This document shows positions 10,618-40,910 of a DNA stretch of 64,000 nt, piece after piece (position 1 is the first letter of the stretch; each line of letters begins with the position of its first letter). The position numbers and the translations under genes were made by a program. Origin of the DNA: Pseudomonas sp. DG56-2 (GTDB taxonomy: Bacteria; Pseudomonadota; Gammaproteobacteria; Pseudomonadales; Pseudomonadaceae); the NCBI RefSeq assembly GCF_004803755.1, contig NZ_CP032311.1, forward strand, positions 884,501 through 948,500, read 5' to 3'. The notes beneath the pieces were generated by a model, which saw only the letters and a program-made list of their open reading frames with translations, did no database searches and was not told the origin of the DNA.

Positions 10618-10623
10618 AACGAA

Positions 10624-10655
10624 GAAGCCCCGGTCGCGGCAACGACCAGGGCTTC
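10624..10655 (+). terminator. Hairpin between arc-like gene and antirepressor
   Basis: GAAGCCC and GGTCG pair with CGACC and GGGCTTC around a CGGCAA loop (one C/A mismatch), seven bases after the arc-like stop. There is no T-run, so it may be an attenuator or an RNA-processing structure rather than a full terminator. It lies 28 bases before the antirepressor start codon. Confidence 0.5.
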
Positions 10656-10683
10656 GAGTGTGAACACTTTGGAGGAAATTCAC

Positions 10684-11589
10684 GTGACGAATAATAGCAC
10701 GGCAACAGCCCAGGTCATCCCGTTCCATTCGGCAAAGCTTCTGCTCATTGAGCATGAAGGGCAGCCATTCGTGCCCATGAAGCCGGTGGTGGAGGGCATG
10801 GGCCTCGCTTGGCAGACCCAGCACCGCAAGCTGATGGAGGGCCGCTTTGCATCAGTTATCACCATTATGGTGACAACTGGTTCCGACGGTAAGCAGTACG
10901 AAATGGCCTGCCTTCCTCTGCGCAAGCTCGCCGGCTGGCTGATGTCGATCCATGCCAGCAAGGTTCGGCCCGAAATTCGCGACGGCGTGATCGCCTACCA
11001 GAACGAATGTGACGATGCCCTGTGGGCTTACTGGAACGATGGCCACGCGGTAAATCATCGTGGTCCGGGCCAGGCCATGACCATCATCAGCCAGACCATC
11101 GGCACCGATGGCTTTCACATGCTGGGCGCGCTGGTCAAGGGTAAGGTTTCCTCGCTACCAGCAGCAGTACAGCGCCGGGCCATAGCAAAAATCTGGTCAC
11201 AAGTGCACGCGGCATTCGGTGTGCGGTCTGCAGAAGACATTCCAGCCGACCAGCTGGACTCGGCCCGGAACTTCATTGCCGCTTACACCCTGGAGGGTGA
11301 GTGGCTGGCCAAACCAGAGAAAGTCGTCGGCACGGTGCTGACCGACCACCAGCTCTACGCCGCGTTCTTTGTGATCCATCACTTTGAACAGCTGCGCGGA
11401 ATCTTCAAGCGCTACGACATGTATACCTGCTTGAGAGGCCTTGGCAGCCGTATTGGTGTCGAAATGCACGACCACTTCCGAGATGGTGCTTTGGGTGTTC
11501 GTGAACTTTCTGCCTTGAAGCCCGAGTACGAGGCCGCCGAGCGCAGACTTGGCCTTAACCGGCATCAGCCTGGCGCCCCCAACTACTGA
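10684..11589 (+). CDS. Phage antirepressor (P22 Ant N-terminal domain type)
   Basis: This 301-residue protein has an N-terminal domain typical of the P22_AR_N family: VIPFHSAKLLLIEHEGQPFV, then a conserved helical region with LPLRKLAGWLMSIHASKV and VIAYQNECDDALWAYW. Such proteins bind and inactivate the prophage repressor, triggering induction. The GTG at 10684 is preferred over an in-frame GTG at 10660 because GGAGGAAA lies at 10671-10678. The C-terminal 180 residues are helical and less recognisable. Placement after two Arc-type repressors and before a tail fibre copies the P22 immI layout. The target repressor is not in this window. Confidence 0.8.
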   Translation: MTNNSTATAQVIPFHSAKLLLIEHEGQPFVPMKPVVEGMGLAWQTQHRKLMEGRFASVITIMVTTGSDGKQYEMACLPLRKLAGWLMSIHASKVRPEIRDGVIAYQNECDDALWAYWNDGHAVNHRGPGQAMTIISQTIGTDGFHMLGALVKGKVSSLPAAVQRRAIAKIWSQVHAAFGVRSAEDIPADQLDSARNFIAAYTLEGEWLAKPEKVVGTVLTDHQLYAAFFVIHHFEQLRGIFKRYDMYTCLRGLGSRIGVEMHDHFRDGALGVRELSALKPEYEAAERRLGLNRHQPGAPNY

Positions 11590-18799: not shown

Positions 18800-19285
18800 T
18801 TATCCCGGTCGATGATGGTAGGTTGCTAGGTCGCTATCTAGAGACCAGATGAATAGCTCGCTCATAGGAAAGCGCGCTACGCACTTTTCGTATTCTTTGA
18901 TTATGCTGAGATCACCAAAACTAGTACCCTCACCGGTTCGGGTGGCAGACTTATTTTGACCTGCTTTATTGGGGAACTCCGCCAGCCAGTCCAAAACCTC
19001 TCTAGTACTGGGAAACTCACTAAGCCTATAGGGAGGCTCATCGGAAAAAGCGGCGCGCACTGCGTCACAGAAGCGTTGCGCTGTTTGTCTACGGAGTCTT
19101 CCATCGCCATTTTGAGCGATATGGTTTCCGGTCTCTAGGATCGTGGCCATTGGTAAAATAAATGTGCAGTTGTTGTCGGCATACTCTAAGAAATCTGCTA
19201 CCACCCGCTCGGCATCCTGATTTAGACCAGGCACGTTCAGCATATTTACAAATACACTAGTGTCGATTAAACAGATTGAGCTCAT
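18800..19285 (-). CDS. PIN-domain protein paired with an ABC-type ATPase
   Basis: This 161-residue protein has PIN nuclease features: strand plus CLIDTSVFVNML with Asp8, an acidic residue at Glu51 (MATILETGNHI), Asp125 (GDLSIIKEYEK) and a terminal strand with Asp150/Asp152 (IWSLDSDLATY). PIN domains are metal-dependent RNases, as in VapC. Its ATG shares one base with the ATPase stop (TAATG), so the two are coupled: ATPase first, PIN second. That is unlike VapBC, where a small antitoxin precedes the PIN gene. This suggests an ATPase sensor controlling an RNase effector, as in several two-gene anti-phage systems. I do not recognise a named system. Confidence 0.7.
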   Translation of the reverse strand: MSSICLIDTSVFVNMLNVPGLNQDAERVVADFLEYADNNCTFILPMATILETGNHIAQNGDGRLRRQTAQRFCDAVRAAFSDEPPYRLSEFPSTREVLDWLAEFPNKAGQNKSATRTGEGTSFGDLSIIKEYEKCVARFPMSELFIWSLDSDLATYHHRPG

Positions 19286-20577
19286 TAGGACTCACCCTGC
19301 ATTTTCCGGAGCCAATCTAATGCATTTTGTCGCTTCTGTTTAACCGTGATAGGTGATTTCACGAAGCGATCCACAATGCCGTTGGTTACTAACTCCCCCA
19401 ATGGCCCTTGGGAAACTAAACCGGCATAGTCTTGCAGATCTGCGAGGCGTACCAAGCGGCTGTCGCCATCCTGGGGGTCACGGTAGCAAAATACTACATC
19501 GCCCAATGCAGTGTCTGGGAGTGCATCCATCAAAGCGGGATTGTGAGTGCTGAGCAGCAGACGCACACCACGTAGCTCAGCTTGCTCACGCATGGTTTTC
19601 ATAAGTTGGCGTGCTCGCGATGGATGGACGCCGTTGTCGACTTCCTCAATAACTAGTGTTGATTCCGCAGGAATAGACAGTAAGGCAGCGGCGATAGCCA
19701 GCACCCGAAGAGTACCATCAGAGAGCAACTCAACTGACCAATTACGCTCGACCGAACCGAAGTTTTCAACCAGCTCCAAGGAGACCCGTCCGCGGCGATC
19801 CTCGAAAAAATTGACATCTTTTACGTCTTGCTCAGGAAGACTCTTGATGAATTCGATTATGGCTGGGCGGGCCCCTTCGTCCTGCCAAAGCGTAAAGAGC
19901 ACACCGGACAAATTAGAGCAGTCACCTCGGAGCTTCTTGTCCGGATAACTATCGCCGCGCATCAAGGCTGGCACAGGATCAAGAAACAAAGTGTTAGCTA
20001 GTAGGCTCTGGAAGTGTTCAGTCGTTTGCGGGATCACCTTCTGTGCTTTCTTATGGCCCGAATCGAACAATGCTGAACTGGCGAGTTGATTTAGAATGGC
20101 TATCTGGTCAGTGCATGTGATTTGTGGCTTCTTGCCGCCTGTGGAGAAATTATTATACGCAACCCGCACGTCAGTACTCAGACCAATAGAGGACTGCTCG
20201 ATACGGTAAAGCGGGAATCTTTGGGTGGGCGAGCTAATACTCTCTTGAACAATATGCAACTCATCTTCACGCAGGGATATTTCGATATTGAAGCTATTCC
20301 ACTCCGAATCATCGGTTTCACAACCCAGTGTGAATGACTGGCCCTGGAGGTACGGAAGGTCCTTAATCTGGCCACGGAGTATTTGCTCTGAATCGTCTAC
20401 TCGGTGGCGTAACACCGATAACTTCTGTCCTTGGCCAAGCCAGCATAGAAAACGGAAGGCCTCTAAAGCATTACTTTTCCCAGAAGCATTAGCACCTATC
20501 ATTAGAGTCAAGGACGATAGAGGTAAACGCTGGTCTCGATAACTTTTAAATCCCTTGATGATAATATTTTTCAGCAT
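19285..20577 (-). CDS. RecF/OLD-like ABC ATPase (AAA_21 type)
   Basis: This 430-residue ATPase opens MLKNIIIKGFKSYRDQRLPL, the usual start of SMC/RecF/OLD-type proteins. Walker A is GANASGKS (28-35), the signature is LLSDGT (about 284-289), and Walker B is TLVIEEVDNGVHP with Glu311/Glu312. The switch histidine is in LLLSTHNPALMDAL (about residue 345). There is no TOPRIM nuclease domain behind the ATPase, so it is not a complete OLD nuclease. The nuclease role is probably supplied by the coupled downstream PIN protein. Related ATPases sense phage products in PARIS and Septu. The pair lies in a hotspot with other probable defence genes. Confidence 0.8.
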   Translation of the reverse strand: MLKNIIIKGFKSYRDQRLPLSSLTLMIGANASGKSNALEAFRFLCWLGQGQKLSVLRHRVDDSEQILRGQIKDLPYLQGQSFTLGCETDDSEWNSFNIEISLREDELHIVQESISSPTQRFPLYRIEQSSIGLSTDVRVAYNNFSTGGKKPQITCTDQIAILNQLASSALFDSGHKKAQKVIPQTTEHFQSLLANTLFLDPVPALMRGDSYPDKKLRGDCSNLSGVLFTLWQDEGARPAIIEFIKSLPEQDVKDVNFFEDRRGRVSLELVENFGSVERNWSVELLSDGTLRVLAIAAALLSIPAESTLVIEEVDNGVHPSRARQLMKTMREQAELRGVRLLLSTHNPALMDALPDTALGDVVFCYRDPQDGDSRLVRLADLQDYAGLVSQGPLGELVTNGIVDRFVKSPITVKQKRQNALDWLRKMQGES

Positions 20578-20641: not shown

Positions 20642-21289
20642 TCAAACAATTCTCCGCACAATGTCGCCAAGCCGCGCTGGATCACCCGCGCACAGCCGTT
20701 TTACTGCTTCTAGGCTCTCGATTCCCAGTATCTCGCTTATATGTCGAAAATCGATGCCTTGGCGCTTCAGCTTCACCGCCAATGTTCGCCACCCTGATTG
20801 GGCGCTTGCACCCTCACCACCGGCTTGGGCGAACAGGCGGATATAGAGACGACTCAGCTGGTTAGCGCTGTAGTAAGTCTTGCCGTCACGTTGTGTGGCA
20901 CTGATCTTCAGCCCGTCACCGGTGCGGCCCGACACGAACAACGACGCCCGGTAGGCTATACGCCTTGCTGAAACTCCATGGCCGCGGTCCAGGCGTTCGA
21001 CCATGGGTGCGTCAATAGCATTGGTCAGTTTCTTGTTCGTCCAGCACAGAGATCGTGCGCGATGTTTGTAAGCAGGCTCTACTCGCACCTGGGAGTCGAT
21101 CAGTACCTCACCGGATTCGCTTACGTAGTCGCTTACACGCAGTCGGCAAATCTCGGTCACCGTCATGCCGGTGCCGAAGCATGTGGGCAGCAGGGCCGCG
21201 TCACGATTGCCATTCTCGGGGCTGCTTACCCTAGCAATCTTCACCGCATGTTCGAGCTGGTGACCCTCGATGACTACCGCCTTGGGCAT
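20642..21289 (-). CDS. Tyrosine-recombinase-like protein lacking catalytic residues
   Basis: This 215-residue protein matches a Pseudomonas integrase-like family starting MPKAVVIEGHQLEHAVKIAR. The recombinase fold is recognisable at CFGTGMTVTEICRLRVSDYV, where an active enzyme normally has Arg in place of the Thr after GM. It is also seen at SGWRTLAVKLKRQGIDFRHI, where the box-II His is absent. No nucleophilic Tyr is visible near the end (LCAGDPARLGDIVRRIV). It is thus probably a non-catalytic DNA-binding relative or a decayed recombinase. The frame is intact, which favours a retained role. It lies 64 bases upstream of the ATPase/PIN pair on the same strand and may be co-transcribed or regulatory. 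Confidence 0.6.
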   Translation of the reverse strand: MPKAVVIEGHQLEHAVKIARVSSPENGNRDAALLPTCFGTGMTVTEICRLRVSDYVSESGEVLIDSQVRVEPAYKHRARSLCWTNKKLTNAIDAPMVERLDRGHGVSARRIAYRASLFVSGRTGDGLKISATQRDGKTYYSANQLSRLYIRLFAQAGGEGASAQSGWRTLAVKLKRQGIDFRHISEILGIESLEAVKRLCAGDPARLGDIVRRIV

Positions 21290-23507: not shown

Positions 23508-24040
23508 TATCAGCGGCCCGATCATTGTCGCCAAGGCGTCTGCGGATCCAGCTGTGTAACCACTGTGCATGATCCCGGTAGAGGTCATGGACCGCTTCGC
23601 GATTGAAGGTGGTGGGAGGGGGGCGCGTAGGACACCGAGTGCTTCCTGCTCTAGATATGAATGGGAATTAATCGCGATTATAAGAAAAGCCCGGATCTTT
23701 GCAATCCGTACTGATCGCTTCAGGAGAATTTCTAGACACAGATGAAACGAAAACGGTGAATGACAGCAATGAGTCGAAAGCGGTCGCTCACTACTGACCG
23801 CTATCGGCCAGAAGCAGACGTAGGCATCAGATTCGCATTTGAGGGCTGGCAGCCGCCTTCCCTCATTTCCACTTTTTTAGATTTTCGTACCATAGGTACT
23901 GTGCAGCAATTGCTCGCTTTTTCAATCTCCGACTAGCGGCCCAAGCAGCTAAATCCCACCAACCTCGACCACAGGCCTTTACAAGGTAAGCTGCAATGTT
24001 GATATCGTTGCATATCGATTCTGCGCGAAGGACTGCTCAC
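23508..24040. other. 530-base region with no gene recognised
   Basis: No supported reading frame was found. The only notable items are a perfect 12-base palindrome TAATCGCGATTA at 23669-23680 and the ribosome site of the next gene (GAAGGA, 24027-24032). Confidence 0.4.
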
Positions 24041-24799
24041 ATGTCTTCCATTACTGCTCTTGATGCTCAGGGCCAGCGGCTGTTGGCGCTCCTAGTAGCC
24101 AAACTACCCTCCGTAAGGCCTGCAAACCCGCAAACCTTCATCGGCTACAAGGAAGTGCACGACCGTCTTGGCCTACCTCAGCTGCGAGAAAAATTTGGCG
24201 AAAGCCTCAAGGTCCAAGGACTCGTTTCTCTTGCTGAATGGACGTATGAAACTCGCAAACCAGCGATCACCGGCCTGGTGATTGATCGCAGCTCATTGAT
24301 GCCGGGCAAAGGCTATTTTGAGTTGTTTGGTCGACAGCCTGAGGACTTTGCCTGGTGGAGGGAAGAAATTGAAAAATCGAAAAGCTTCGATTGGTTGCCA
24401 TTTCTCCCCCAGGAGACTGTTCCAGAGCCGCCTGCGGCCGTTGATATTGAAGGTTCAACTGATCGCGCAGAAGTAACAACTTATCGGATCATTCGCGACA
24501 CATTGCTGGCACGGCGAGTCAAGCAACTACACGACTACCAATGCCAACTCTGCGATCACACGATCATACTGCCTGATGGGAGCCGGTACGCTGAAGCCCA
24601 TCATGTTCAGCCACTGGGAGCCCCCCATAACGGACCTGATATATTGGAGAACATCGTCTGCGTATGCCCGAATCACCACGCCGAGCTTGATTACGGCGCG
24701 CGCACTCTCAACCAAACCGACCTCCGACCAGCAGAGGGGCACTCTCTTGGAGACCGCTATCTGGCATACCACAATACGAACGTCCACAAAGCGCCTTAG
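24041..24799 (+). CDS. HNH endonuclease
   Basis: This 252-residue protein is read from ATG 24041 because GAAGGA lies eight bases upstream. Residues about 1-115 form a domain often found fused to HNH nucleases (GYKEVHDRLGLPQLREKFGE; FELFGRQPEDFAWWREEI). The C-terminal half is an HNH nuclease with structural zinc ligands: QCQLCD (Cys168/Cys171), YAEAHHVQPLG (His187/His188), Asn203 and VCVCPNHHAELDYG (Cys207/Cys209, His212). All HNH positions are present, so it is likely to be active on DNA. It precedes a HEPN-like gene by 29 bases on the same strand. Probably a restriction-type defence nuclease; target unknown. Confidence 0.8.
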   Translation: MSSITALDAQGQRLLALLVAKLPSVRPANPQTFIGYKEVHDRLGLPQLREKFGESLKVQGLVSLAEWTYETRKPAITGLVIDRSSLMPGKGYFELFGRQPEDFAWWREEIEKSKSFDWLPFLPQETVPEPPAAVDIEGSTDRAEVTTYRIIRDTLLARRVKQLHDYQCQLCDHTIILPDGSRYAEAHHVQPLGAPHNGPDILENIVCVCPNHHAELDYGARTLNQTDLRPAEGHSLGDRYLAYHNTNVHKAP

Positions 24800-29087: not shown

Positions 29088-30056
29088 CTAGAGCTCATAG
29101 GGATGAAGCCCCATTGCTGACCCGATAGCGTAGCCTACGTTCTGCCAGAGAACGCGATTGAGGTCTCCCGGGATGAAGGACGTTTCGTCGTTGCAGAGGC
29201 GAAGAAGCTTTCCGTTCGCTAGGTATTCGTGGGTATAGTCGCCGACCGCTCGCTGGCTCATCTGGCGAGGCAATACCGCGATAAGTGGATCTACGTACAC
29301 AGGGTCGTCAGCAATCAAAATGAACTCATCAAATAGGTGAGCATAGCTCTGCATGTGCTCTCCGAGATCAATGGAGTAAAGCTCACTCGCCAACGTAGTA
29401 AATTTTACCTCCCCTTTCTCGTATTCAAGCACCTGCGCGTCCAGTGCCTTTATTTCGTCCTCTAAGTGGGGTGGGGCGAATACATAGACAGTGATGAATG
29501 ATTTTTCGTGCAACCACTGGATTGCATGCGGGATAAGCTCTGCCAGTGAAGGTGCACAAAGCCTCTTCTCAGGATACAGGCCCTTATAAAATCGCACTGC
29601 GGCGTGAGTTTGCTTTAGTAAGAATGAGTAGTCGACGTACATGACCCTGTATTTTGCAGGGGCTCGCTGGAGGATTTCTCGATAGGTCTGCTTGACGATG
29701 GCAACGCATTGATCCGCGCTCTGGTGGATCTCACTCCCGGTGAACCTGAGTACGGTATAGCCAGCTCGCGTCAGATAGCGTTGCCTTTGAGTGTCTTTTG
29801 CTATCTGTTCCTTAGAAGAGTGGTATTCGTGCCCGTCAAGCTCAATGATCAATCGAGCGTCCTCTAGCAGGAAGTCAACCCGAAAACGATGATGCTTCTG
29901 ACTATCCCCAAACCAGTGCTCTCGCTGGATTTTCTCTGCTAGGTCTGCCGCTGCTTCACTGAACGCACTCTCGATGGGGGAGGGAGTTCTGTCGCGATAC
30001 CAACTTGGGGGCGTAGTAGGGTGCCCAGGGTATTTCATCATTGTGTCCGTTCCCAA
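29088..30056 (-). CDS. DUF559 (Vsr-like) nuclease-domain protein
   Basis: This is a 322-residue protein. Residues about 25-130 form a DUF559 domain of the PD-(D/E)xK/Vsr fold: SPIESAFSEAA (Glu29), FRVDFLL (Asp61), LIIELDGHEYH (Glu72, Asp74), then QRQRYLTRAGYTVLRFTGSE. These positions are the metal-binding set. The remaining 190 residues are a separate alpha/beta region (YRVMYVDYSFLLKQTHAAVR; VYVFAPPHLEDEIKALDAQV) that I cannot assign. It lies alone between an integrase remnant and a PIN gene. Likely a DNA endonuclease used in defence or mobile-element biology; specificity unknown. Confidence 0.7.
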   Translation of the reverse strand: MGTDTMMKYPGHPTTPPSWYRDRTPSPIESAFSEAAADLAEKIQREHWFGDSQKHHRFRVDFLLEDARLIIELDGHEYHSSKEQIAKDTQRQRYLTRAGYTVLRFTGSEIHQSADQCVAIVKQTYREILQRAPAKYRVMYVDYSFLLKQTHAAVRFYKGLYPEKRLCAPSLAELIPHAIQWLHEKSFITVYVFAPPHLEDEIKALDAQVLEYEKGEVKFTTLASELYSIDLGEHMQSYAHLFDEFILIADDPVYVDPLIAVLPRQMSQRAVGDYTHEYLANGKLLRLCNDETSFIPGDLNRVLWQNVGYAIGSAMGLHPYEL

Positions 30057-30447: not shown

Positions 30448-31890
30448 CTATGTAGGTGAAGTAATTTGTGCGATTAGGTTTTTTGCAATCGCAAAAATAT
30501 GTACTTCTTCAATTTCTATTTGAATGGATTTCGTAGACTTCACTGGCGCTCGTAGGTTCGCGGCGCTGACTGTAACTTGAAGGGCCCCGCGAAGATTTTT
30601 TTCAGATCCCTTGGTGACAATTCTCAAACTGAAGCTTTCATTGCCATCCTGATGCCGCCACTGCTTGCATTCGAACTCCACATTGTCAGTCGGTGATTTC
30701 GGTTTCCCAAACTTCCAATAAAATCCGTTTGCGTCGCGGTTGTGTTTCGAAAAAATATCTGTATTCAATAGGCGATCACTCGCTAAAAGCGAAGAATCAA
30801 AGCCTAGTGATGCGAGGTCTGTGAAGTGAGATAGAGGAGAAACGTGCTTGCCTTTCGGGGGGGAGGGCGGTGGAGGGATTTCGGTGAAAGCTGGCTCCTC
30901 CTCATCATCCAGGTCAGTTGGACTCAAAATTCCAAACTCCGCTCCCTTTACTTTGAATCTAACCACAACATCTTCGGCTGGGCGATTTCCAGCATTGTTC
31001 AATAGAGTGGTTACGATGATTTCTCCATCACGCCTATCTAGCTCTAAATGTAATTTTGTGAATAATTTCTCGCAGTCAGTAATCCATTTTTCATATTTGT
31101 CGTTGTATCTGTTGATTTCTGTTTGACTCGGGAGCATAAAGCGAGACAGTGGCATGAGTGACGCAGTGGCGCCTAACCCTCGTCTCTCCGGCTCCTTGGC
31201 GCTGAAGTCAGTCCTGATGGGATTGTTTTCAATCAGCATGTTCATGAGCATTGAGATTTCACCATCCGAAAGCGCTAGGTGCTTTCGATAACTGAATGTC
31301 CAAGAATCCTCTTCAAAAGAAATATTGCACCTAGGCTCAGCGGAGGTCAGCTCGCGCAATTGCGCCTCAAGGTTTTGAATTTTTCGCTCGTCTTCATCGT
31401 TTTCGGCTGTCAAAAGCCAATTTTCCGGAACTCTCTGAAATTGAACGCCAACCCGTTTTGCCCTCAAAAGAGGCCCAGTGTCATATGATAGGAACAAGAC
31501 CTTAGCGTCCGTGTTTTTCTGATAAGCATGAGCGATGCCTACCAATAGGTCATCGACATGACTATAGTTCATCTCACCATTGAGCTCGGGAGAGGGTTCT
31601 AAGTCTTGCCCAAGCGATACCAATACGGTGGGGCCATTCCCTTGGGTGTCAATATTTACTTGGTCTTCTTGCAAGAATTTAGCAAACAACCCATTTGCAA
31701 GTCTTGCTCGCCTGGCGAGTTTTCCACTTCCGGATTTTTGACGGTCAACTTCAGCGATTACTGGCCGAGTGACCATTAAAACAATTTTTTCATAATTTCC
31801 CAAGTCGTTCCAGTTCAATGCTCCGAGCTGTTTGCATTGAACGAACACGTTCGTATCCGGGAACACAAAAAGGGTTTTGCTGCTGTCCAT
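30448..31890 (-). CDS. 480-residue protein with N-terminal PIN domain
   Basis: Residues about 5-165 form a PIN nuclease domain: FVFPDTNVFVQCK (Asp12), VTRPVIAEVDRQKSG (acidic residue in the second motif), HVDDLLVGIAHAYQ and VLFLSYDTGPLLRAKRVGVQ. The remaining 300 residues include a charged linker, a central helical part and a C-terminal beta-rich region with a proline segment (TEIPPPPSPPKGK). This is much longer than VapC toxins and has no antitoxin gene beside it. Codon usage is visibly AT-richer than core genes, a sign of transfer. Probably an RNA-cleaving defence effector with a sensing C-terminal part, but this is inference. Confidence 0.65.
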   Translation of the reverse strand: MDSSKTLFVFPDTNVFVQCKQLGALNWNDLGNYEKIVLMVTRPVIAEVDRQKSGSGKLARRARLANGLFAKFLQEDQVNIDTQGNGPTVLVSLGQDLEPSPELNGEMNYSHVDDLLVGIAHAYQKNTDAKVLFLSYDTGPLLRAKRVGVQFQRVPENWLLTAENDEDERKIQNLEAQLRELTSAEPRCNISFEEDSWTFSYRKHLALSDGEISMLMNMLIENNPIRTDFSAKEPERRGLGATASLMPLSRFMLPSQTEINRYNDKYEKWITDCEKLFTKLHLELDRRDGEIIVTTLLNNAGNRPAEDVVVRFKVKGAEFGILSPTDLDDEEEPAFTEIPPPPSPPKGKHVSPLSHFTDLASLGFDSSLLASDRLLNTDIFSKHNRDANGFYWKFGKPKSPTDNVEFECKQWRHQDGNESFSLRIVTKGSEKNLRGALQVTVSAANLRAPVKSTKSIQIEIEEVHIFAIAKNLIAQITSPT

Positions 31891-32190
31891 ATTCGTATTT
31901 TCCTGCCAGCCATCCCAAAACTAAATCATTCACCGACAAGCACTAGCTCTGCTCCCTGGCGCGAGCGGCAGAACCCTTCTGTGTCGGGTCGCAGCACCTC
32001 ATAGCATCATATCTCAAAAGCGCTTATGCACAAGGCACAACTATGGCATTCTAGCGGAGAGGGTGGGTGGAGGCGCGTCTTGGCCGTTTCATCACAGCAC
32101 TGAGGTTGGCTGGTGATGGCTACTCACTGATGAACCCTGACATTAGCTCTCGCAATATTTTTGGATGAGTCTCAGTTGATAAGGTTAACC
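31891..32190. other. 300-base region between divergent accessory genes
   Basis: It holds the divergent 5' regions of the PIN protein (minus strand) and the AbiC-like protein (plus strand). No palindromic operator or clear promoter was found. AAGG at 32179-32182 serves the start at 32191. Confidence 0.3.
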
Positions 32191-33165
32191 ATGGAATCAC
32201 TGTCAAGATTTTTCTATATGCATGATCATTCTAATCCAGAGGCTCCCCCAAGCCTGCATATCCGCAATGTTCTACTGTTTTGCGTGGGAGGCGTTGTACT
32301 TACGGTCATAGTATATGCCGCATTTTTAGTATTCAAGACCTGGCCTATCGATCAATACTCTATTGCAAGTGCGGGTACTTTTGGCGATAGTTTCGGGATG
32401 CTGAACAGTTTGTTTACAGGCTTAGGGTTCGCGGGGCTTCTAGTCACAATATTCTTGCAGCGAGAGGATCTTAAGCTTACCAGAATAGAATTGTCCGAAA
32501 CCCGAGAGGAAATTAAAAATCAAAGCCTGACGTTCAGGCAGCAGCAGTTTGAAGAGTCGTTCTATCGTATCCTTGCTTTGTACAAAGATAATCTGTACCA
32601 GATATCAGTTAGGGTTGAACGCAATTCAGATGTCCGCATGGAGGGCGTAAATGCACTGATTTCCAAGCAGCGGAGGTTTGAGGATAAGTGCAAGATAGAA
32701 CTTCCCGGTGATTTTCCTATGGACGGCACCTTGGAAGAGAAAGATGACTATGCGTATACTCTTTACCAACTATGTGATGCCTCCTTGTCTAGGCAGTCTA
32801 GATATATGGAGACCTTGAATACGATCCTTGATGTCGTGACGCATCACTGCTTCGATGAGGAAAGAAAAGAGTATTATTTCAGCATTTTGTCTTCGCAGTT
32901 GACTGCTCATGAAGCAAAATATATTTTTTATCAGGCATTCTTGGATCCGAATTACAACTCACTCAGATCCACGCTAGCCAATTCCCATGCTTTCAGTAAG
33001 CGCTTCCAAATTGACAGCATCGATTCTGGGCACTATGCCGCTTTTGAGTATCTTTGGAATGTCAGATTAGCGAGTACTTCTTCAGAGCACGATAGGCTTT
33101 TCGCAAGCGGACGATTCAGAGAGGCACGTCTTCGTGCCCGTGGTCGTGCAAAGACCTCTACGTAG
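32191..33165 (+). CDS. Putative phage abortive-infection protein (AbiC-like)
   Basis: This 324-residue membrane protein is read from ATG 32191 (AAGG eight bases upstream; a TTG at 32161 is less likely). It has two N-terminal membrane helices, about 27-48 and 63-90, the second within the family hallmark TFGDSFGMLNSLFTGLGFAG, followed by QREDLKLTRIELSETREEIK and a cytoplasmic helical domain starting QQQFEESFYRILALYKDN. This matches the putative abortive-infection (putAbiC) family. Members are thought to stop growth of infected cells; the mechanism is unknown. AT-rich, single gene, ending just before an IS5 stub. It is the clearest defence gene in the hotspot. Confidence 0.75.
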   Translation: MESLSRFFYMHDHSNPEAPPSLHIRNVLLFCVGGVVLTVIVYAAFLVFKTWPIDQYSIASAGTFGDSFGMLNSLFTGLGFAGLLVTIFLQREDLKLTRIELSETREEIKNQSLTFRQQQFEESFYRILALYKDNLYQISVRVERNSDVRMEGVNALISKQRRFEDKCKIELPGDFPMDGTLEEKDDYAYTLYQLCDASLSRQSRYMETLNTILDVVTHHCFDEERKEYYFSILSSQLTAHEAKYIFYQAFLDPNYNSLRSTLANSHAFSKRFQIDSIDSGHYAAFEYLWNVRLASTSSEHDRLFASGRFREARLRARGRAKTST

Positions 33166-36837: not shown

Positions 36838-37500
36838 AACCAGCCTTGCCGAAACAAAGCCGGTGCTCGCCTGTGCATAACTCAGTGCTTCAACTGCACC
36901 TTGCTCAAGGCCACTTCGATCAGGTTTTGGGCGTTTTCGATTTCGTGCATGGTGGCCAGGGTAAGAACCTGCCCTGGGGCGCTGGAATGCAGCAGGACTG
37001 TTTGTTGCGCGATGGTCAGGGCGCAGACCATGTATTCGGACATTTGGATGAGGATGTCTTCGAGAGACTGTTTAGTAGCGCCGGGTGGATCTGGAACGAT
37101 TTTCAACATGCGAACCTCTAGAGCCTAGTGGGGCTGCTACAGACCTGCTGTCAAACAAGTGGGTGGCAGCTATACGCGGGTTGACAGACCGAGGACTCTA
37201 GAACTCGGCGCACACAAGGTGCCCCACGTACAGCCGCCATAACGCGTGCACGTGCTCTAGAGGTCAATTACGGCCTGTCAAAACCGGTCGTTGAACACCA
37301 ACGACCCGCCGAGACTAGAGCCCTCATACGGCCATCGCAATGCCACACGTGCGGCAAAAGTATGATTCGGAAATGGACTACATGGAATCGGGAAATTCTG
37401 AAGATTAAGCACCAAGCCATGAAAGAAACCACGCCAATAACCGACAAGTCTCGACCATTTCCTACAGCAACCACTCCACCTTCCGGGAAGTCATCCATGC
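36838..37500. repeat. Long direct repeat, copy 1
   Basis: About 660 bases are almost identical to 40249-40910. The unit includes a 75-residue gene, its upstream region with the words CGGGTTGACAGACCGA and GTTGAACACCAACGACCCGC, and about 380 bases with no recognised gene. The two copies bracket the aldolase/TauD/TetR cluster. Confidence 0.85.
36882..37109 (-). CDS. Pseudomonas small protein, repeat copy 1 (DUF6124-like)
   Basis: This 75-residue protein starts MLKIVPDPPGATKQSLEDIL and continues ALTIAQQTVLLHSSAPGQVL, LATMHEIENAQNLIEVALSK. It resembles small Pseudomonas proteins grouped as DUF6124 and often found beside DUF3077 genes. The ribosome site AGAGG lies five bases before the ATG. It is almost identical to the product of 40293-40520; differences cluster at residues 10-14, with two conservative changes after them. 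Function unknown; helical, soluble. Confidence 0.6.
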   Translation of the reverse strand: MLKIVPDPPGATKQSLEDILIQMSEYMVCALTIAQQTVLLHSSAPGQVLTLATMHEIENAQNLIEVALSKVQLKH

Positions 37501-40248: not shown

Positions 40249-40910
40249 AACCAGCCTTGCCGAAACAAAGCCGGTGCTCGCCTGTTCGTGGCTCAATGCT
40301 TCAACTGCACTTTGCTCAAGGCCACTTCGATCAGGTTTTGGGCGTTTTCGATTTCGTGCATGGTGGCCAGGGTAAGCACCTGGCCAGGGGCGCTGGAATG
40401 CAGCAGGACTGTCTGTTGCGCGATGGTCAGAGCGCAGACCATGTATTCGGAGATTTGGATGAGGACGTCTTCAAGAGACTGGTTGTTGACATTGGGTGGA
40501 TCAGGAACGATTTTCAACATGGTGCCTCCCGGTGAGTGGAGTCGCCACGAATCTGCTGTCAAACAAATGGGTGGCAACTGTACGCGGGTTGACAGACCGA
40601 ACACCGGAGAACTCGGCGCACACGAAGGTGCCCCACGTACAATCGCCATAAAGCTTGCACATGTCTTCGGTGAGTGCGGTCTGTCAAAACCGGTCGTTGA
40701 ACACCAACGACCCGCCGAGACTAGAGCCCTCATAAGGCCATCGCAATGCCACAAGTGCGGCAAAAGTATGATTCGGAAATGGACTACATGGAATCGGGAA
40801 ATTCTGAAGATTCAGCTCCGAACCATGAACGAAACTACGTCATTAACCGACAAGGCTCGACCGTTTCCTACAGCTAACTCTCCGCCTTGGTGGAAATCAT
40901 CCTTGCATAC
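40249..40910. repeat. Long direct repeat, copy 2
   Basis: Near-identical to 36838-37500. Just to its left is a tandem of AGCCCCAAAGCAACC (40222-40252) and a short stretch matching the start of the DUF3077-gene region of copy 1. The unit ends about 60 bases before the sigma-factor gene. The segment 40521-40967 carries no gene apart from this repeat and the Fur-like site. Confidence 0.85.
40293..40520 (-). CDS. Pseudomonas small protein, repeat copy 2 (DUF6124-like)
   Basis: This 75-residue protein starts MLKIVPDPPNVNNQSLEDVL and from about residue 23 on is identical to the copy at 36882-37109. The ribosome site GGGAGG lies four bases before the ATG. A longer in-frame opening to 40763 is not needed. 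Both copies keep an open frame and good ribosome sites, so both may be expressed. Confidence 0.6.
   Translation of the reverse strand: MLKIVPDPPNVNNQSLEDVLIQISEYMVCALTIAQQTVLLHSSAPGQVLTLATMHEIENAQNLIEVALSKVQLKH

Follow-up and report, generated by a model that had tools for sequence, protein, structure and literature searches.

Does a two-gene unit of Pseudomonas sp. DG56-2, in which an ATPase gene overlaps a gene for a PIN-domain protein, represent an anti-phage system and, if so, a new one? The unit lies at positions 18800..20577 of a 64,000-nucleotide stretch of contig NZ_CP032311.1 (positions 884,501 to 948,500). This whole stretch is called the window, and positions without a locus prefix refer to it. 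An earlier reading of the DNA letters (the original prediction) proposed a candidate anti-phage system and implied that it was novel. The pair is a new locus of an already catalogued candidate family, PDC-M07, and not a new system; the implied novelty thus falls away. In our view, triggered abortive infection is the most likely function of this PDC-M07 member, with a probability of roughly 0.6. The pair consists of two coupled genes with intact catalytic motifs, is recurrently co-inherited, and is embedded in the defence operons of some relatives.

Both open reading frames (ORFs) were found where they had been placed, on the minus strand. The upstream gene (19285..20577) encodes a 430-amino-acid RecF/SMC/OLD-type ABC ATPase (PDC-M07A), and the downstream gene (18800..19285) encodes PDC-M07B, a VapC-like PIN-domain protein of 161 amino acids that presumably acts as the effector nuclease. 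The ATPase stop and the PIN start share one base in the sequence TAATG (19283..19287), so the predicted one-base overlap is real. The ATPase motifs were conserved in an alignment of 42 sequences. They comprise Walker A (GANASGKSN, residues 28-36, 20470..20496), the ABC signature (LSDGTLRV, residues 285-292, 19702..19725) and the Walker B/D-loop region (TLVIEEVDNG, residues 307-316, 19630..19659) with the presumed catalytic Glu312. Residues G28, G33 and K34 of Walker A, S286-D287-G288 of the signature, E312 and D314 were invariant, and S35 was replaced by T in one sequence. The predicted fold of the ATPase was near PtuA. No AriA structure was among its best 50 fold matches, which has no bearing on membership in PARIS (phage anti-restriction-induced system). 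The 161-amino-acid protein had no Pfam match, and a comparison with the sequences of solved structures gave nothing useful. Its predicted structure was modelled with confidence as a VapC-like PIN fold. The four expected acidic residues, Asp8 (codon 19262..19264), Glu51 (19133-19135), Asp125 (18911-18913) and Asp150 (18836-18838), were all retained in 44 of 45 aligned sequences. NCBIfam named neither protein above its cut-off.

The family assignment rests on PADLOC-DB v2.0.0 (2023). The PDC-M07A profile PDLC04392 matched residues 1-429 of the ATPase (E 6.4e-211), and the PDC-M07B profile PDLC04395 matched residues 1-159 of the PIN protein (E 7.6e-76). Both proteins match over their full length, the same two genes are adjacent, and nothing was found that sets the window pair apart from the family. 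The name PDC-M07 was absent from the literature searched; supplements and bioRxiv lay outside this search, and a description there is possible. No ATPase-PIN pair of this type was seen in the accessible portions of PMC10440598, PMC10853773 and PMC13092281.

The original prediction had named the lack of such pairs elsewhere as a result that would speak against it. The pair was found to recur in Pseudomonas, Vibrionaceae, Cyanobacteria and others, in some cases inside restriction-modification (R-M) or bacteriophage exclusion (BREX) operons. Unselected tallies were obtained from the genome-contig, genus, class, phylum and plasmid searches and from the ATPase-based searches of IMG/VR. First, among 348 genomes of the genus, the ATPase was present in 8 (E<=1e-60, window included), and the PIN gene was directly downstream in 8/8. 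The PIN protein was present in 10 (E<=1e-5, window included), each time beside an ATPase gene that is either whole or broken. Two of these loci were matched by the PIN protein only: L024 does contain the ATPase, but the contig begins within it and the reading frame is interrupted close to one ambiguous base; in L027, both genes are remnants. The class search detected the ATPase in 4 of 369 genomes (E<=1e-90, window included) and the PIN gene beside the other 3/3. In the phylum, 22 ATPase matches (E<=1e-60) came from 15 of 398 genomes, and a PIN gene was directly downstream in 13 of them, window included. A search of genome contigs gave 8 loci with PIN in each, one of which (L009) is truncated. 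In addition, the PIN gene lay beside the ATPase in 8 of 9 plasmid ATPase records, and the ATPase beside the PIN gene in 9/9 plasmid PIN records. The ninth ATPase record (L069, a Brasilonema plasmid) carries a distant ATPase, and its partner (L069:6248-6829, +) had no Pfam or PADLOC match. Finally, alignment with the ATPase identified three loci in IMG/VR (L072-L074), each with PIN; none was confirmed there with the PIN sequence alone. PIN relatives as such numbered 1719 at E<=0.001.

The nearest named relative of the ATPase is from P. weihenstephanensis (94%), and the best named PIN matches are from Pseudomonas. Intact copies in L002, L003 and L054 have 87-94% ATPase identity and 77-90% PIN identity. 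The two genes were on the same strand with an overlap or a gap of <=12 bases in 34/34 intact fetched loci (longest ORF; a set partly chosen for PIN). The pairwise identities of the two proteins correlated over 35 pairs (Spearman 0.75), and 0/999 permutations gave a value as high; this test omits two broken loci, L009 and L068. The 36 inspected loci, 36/36 of which carry both ATPase and PIN, are a selected set that includes close relatives (L051/L052; L053/L070/L071). It omits L036-L042, L047 and L048, which have no PIN downstream, and L043-L046, which are distant pairs with PIN. L028 lies wholly within L005 and was counted once. As a separate observation, the sister ATPases at L048 and L041 are paired with a protein of 188-202 amino acids (L048:2772-3380 and L041:2799-3365, both +) that had no Pfam or PADLOC match and resembles TOPRIM/DUF4276 proteins by eye. 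If it is such a protein, effectors would have been swapped on the same ATPase family.

The loci whose gene contexts were compared had been chosen by sequence, not by context. The pair was embedded in an R-M operon in six of the 36 inspected loci and in a BREX operon in one. All six R-M operons are of type I and hold the pair between hsdS and hsdR (L004, L006, L007, L051, L052 and L078). Two of these operons are plasmid-borne, one on pAQU1 from Photobacterium damselae (L051) and one on pIFL1_3 from Vibrio campbellii (L052); both run hsdM, hsdS, ATPase, PIN, hsdR, and their genes overlap. The other four are a Tepidiphilus metagenome-assembled genome (L006), a genome of the same class (L078), Nodosilinea (L004, with one extra gene before the ATPase) and Candidatus Ozemobacter (L007, with two). 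The Photobacterium HsdM, HsdS and HsdR matched proteins in L006, L007 and L078. In L004, no match to the Photobacterium HsdR was seen, and the R-M genes were recognised by PADLOC (MTase_I 4.7e-190, specificity 3e-72, REase_I 8.4e-176). The matches of the L004 HsdM and HsdR to references derived from L004 carry no weight; the PADLOC scan is independent of them. The BREX operon, in a member of the same order (L064), reads brxA-brxB-brxC-[pair]-pglX-Orf5-pglZ-brxL, and brxL runs off the fetched stretch. The embedded loci fall on four separate branches of the ATPase tree, three of them R-M (FastTree; branch support left aside).

Of the neighbouring ORFs, 118 of 120 were scanned; two running off an end were omitted, and one (L064:18532-19991) was scanned afterwards. 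The tallies of neighbour families cover the first 25 families listed, and further matches are possible. LmuB and LmuC genes lie about 2 kb upstream of the pair in Azotobacter (L003). Two further proteins share an R-M operon with the pair: a Ppl-like protein (L007:6211-8844, +; 1.6e-34) and a PDC-S32-like protein (L004:8876-9913, +; 1.6e-8). The embedding in R-M and BREX operons together with the co-occurrence supports a defence role, and in these comparisons of sequence and gene order the proposal of a candidate anti-phage system gained support. The embedding also suggests, short of proof, a PARIS-like back-up to restriction.

How does the pair relate to systems already known? By profile and fold evidence, a PIN protein takes the place of the TOPRIM partner of PARIS and the HNH partner of Septu, as had been proposed. 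The pair resembles PARIS in having two genes, for an ABC ATPase and a separate nuclease. The AriA profile matches the window ATPase (E 5.9e-30), and PARIS too occurs embedded in BREX, according to the accessible part of PMC11341690. However, the window effector is a VapC-like PIN protein, whereas the PARIS effector AriB is a TOPRIM nuclease, and the window ATPase falls into a separate profile family (5.9e-30 for AriA vs 6.4e-211 for PDC-M07A). In PADLOC, the PIN partner matched PDC-M07B profiles only and no TOPRIM AriB. An assignment to PARIS was rejected because the partner has a PIN fold and AriA is not the best profile of the ATPase. In Septu and the retron Eco7 PtuAB, PtuB is an HNH nuclease (PMC12409363 and PMC10440598, in the parts available), whereas no HNH match was found in the PIN partner with Pfam, PADLOC or fold comparison. 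The NCBIfam PtuA model, which has a cut-off of 500 bits, gave the window ATPase a score of 16.9. With a PIN-fold partner, no HNH and a score so far below the cut-off, Septu was rejected as well. The VapBC type II toxin-antitoxin (TA) systems share the PIN fold and its acidic residues, but the window has no small DNA-binding antitoxin gene; the overlapping upstream gene encodes the 430-amino-acid ABC ATPase, and this large partner led us to reject a type II TA assignment. MAD3 of the methylation-associated defence system (MADS) is a related ATPase, but its 68.1 bits are far under the NCBIfam curated cut-off of 420. We take MAD3 to belong to a different, multi-gene system.

The mechanism that we propose is modelled on PARIS. 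In the available text of PMC12409363, a hexamer of the AriA ATPase holds AriB, and triggers such as Ocr release AriB, which cuts tRNA. By analogy, the ABC ATPase would be the sensor and would restrain the PIN RNase in the way that AriA restrains AriB. A phage signal would alter the ATPase complex, and the PIN protein would be freed. Like VapC toxins, the freed protein may cleave tRNA or rRNA that the cell cannot do without, and translation would stop before the phage multiplies. Sequestration, phage trigger, RNA substrate and abortive outcome are inferred. A requirement for catalytic PIN residues in defence is reported for two other systems, DS-3 and DS-5, in an accessible section of PMC13092281. 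Section 6 of PMC10440598 notes for TOPRIM, HNH and HEPN that nuclease domains tend to pair with this ATPase class; the partners it gives for PIN-like domains are of the ImmA type instead. In R-M or BREX operons, the pair probably covers phages that disable restriction. A bolder version, which we regard as tentative and clearly less probable than the general one, is that the pair guards restriction in the manner of PARIS. The ATPase would respond to inhibited restriction complexes or to the anti-restriction proteins of phages and would then free the PIN RNase, and TOPRIM (PARIS), HNH (Septu) and PIN would be interchangeable on one sensor chassis. Such a function would explain why the pair is found within type I R-M and BREX operons, and it is this embedding that suggests the version. 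In the Salmonella BREX island that harbours PARIS, PARIS was inactive against the phages tested, also with Ocr (PMC11341690, in the part available).

Several points weigh against the abortive-infection reading. First, PADLOC PDC systems derive from 'guilt-by-embedding' without experimental validation, as stated in the available part of PMC10855318. Since the PDC-M07 family is itself defined by embedding, the embedding of a member is corroboration and not an independent discovery. Two other PDC candidates were inactive in E. coli (PMC12409345, in the portion available), so a catalogue entry is not proof of function; no phage assay of this pair was found in the literature searched. Second, the embedding figure of 7/36 has no control set, and a PADLOC scan of the 18 other window ORFs detected no type I R-M or BREX core gene. 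Third, the pairing is not universal: 9 of the 22 phylum ATPases, mostly divergent, have no PIN directly downstream (L036-L042, L047 and L048). One of them, L042 (1.4e-124), is a closer relative, yet it has no PIN downstream and carries an in-frame stop. In the L062 relative (PIN at L062:7900-8379, +), the pair is kept, with a PIN protein that has lost two of its four acidic residues. The ATPase motifs of L062 are intact despite these losses, which may mean that the effector has become inactive in nature or that its role has changed. Finally, 50,697 phage records gave no match (PIN E 1e-5, ATPase E 1e-20), and neither did a DNA search of E. coli genomes with the window pair and the Photobacterium pair.

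Among other explanations, an addiction module is the strongest, and we consider it unlikely. Here, the ATPase would neutralise the PIN toxin and mainly keep mobile elements in the cell, and phage defence would be incidental. The VapC-like toxin fold fits this idea, as do the small plasmids that carry some of the pairs (L050, 9.1 kb; L049, 11.4 kb), the recombinase that adjoins the pair in three Pseudomonas loci, and the finding that in the genus every PIN gene had the ATPase gene, whole or broken, beside it (10/10). However, the partner is a 430-amino-acid ATPase and not a small DNA-binding antitoxin, and the sensor-then-nuclease order points to defence where the pair lies within R-M or BREX operons, two of which (L051 and L052) have overlapping reading frames. 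Somewhat less likely again is that the PIN protein is a DNase, with the ATPase loading on phage DNA and the PIN protein cutting that DNA directly in a restriction-like manner. The DNA-binding SMC and Rad50 heads among the nearest folds of the ATPase and the embedding in restriction operons are consistent with a DNase; T5 flap endonuclease also appears in the fold list, at the low rank of 41 (E 0.16). A decaying or regulatory passenger with no current defence function in this strain is very improbable: integrase pieces and insertion sequence (IS) transposase genes surround the pair and visible damage is present in two relatives (L027 and L009), but both window frames are intact with all catalytic residues, and L002, L003 and L054 hold intact copies.

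The surroundings in the window were only partly as first described. The original prediction had placed the unit among defence-like genes, and neighbours of this kind, loosely defence-like by their sequence matches, do occur, but the local defence island is weak. They are an HNH protein (23996-24799, +) with a weak PADLOC type IV restriction match (2.7e-8) and an NCBIfam phosphorothioate-dependent restriction match below the curated cut-off, a DUF559/MTES nuclease-type protein (29088-30056), a 480-amino-acid PIN_4 protein (30448-31890, -; PIN_4 1.1e-8, no PADLOC match) and a weak putAbiC match (32161-33165). The IS transposase genes and integrase pieces lie in the 15-34 kb part of the window. 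The G+C content of the pair is 0.49 vs 0.57 for the window, which is compatible with imported DNA. Directly upstream of the ATPase lies a gene for a 215-amino-acid tyrosine recombinase (20642..21289, -; Pfam Phage_integrase 7.4e-9), and homologues of it have the same position in L002 (2790-3452) and L054 (10752-11414). It travels with the pair but is not part of the core unit. By eye, from protein sequences only, L002 resembles a prophage lysis region and L054 a Tn7-type element.

Farther from the pair, the window carries antisense RNA matches. Two C4 antisense RNAs (Rfam RF01695) at 37159-37318 (-) and 40567-40724 (-) lie about 3.4 kb apart, and each adjoins its a1/b1 target element (RF03163); the former has a LysR regulator on one side and an Aldolase_II gene on the other. 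A sar antisense RNA match (10620-10683, -) overlaps the start of a P22_AR_N antirepressor-like gene (10660-11589), an arrangement reminiscent of immI in phage P22.

PDC-M07 is a widespread candidate family. If it is active, a PIN RNase would join the nucleases known to be controlled by SMC-like ATPase sensors in phage defence, and the placement of the pair in the R-M and BREX operons of some relatives offers a direct way to ask whether a second unit guards restriction.
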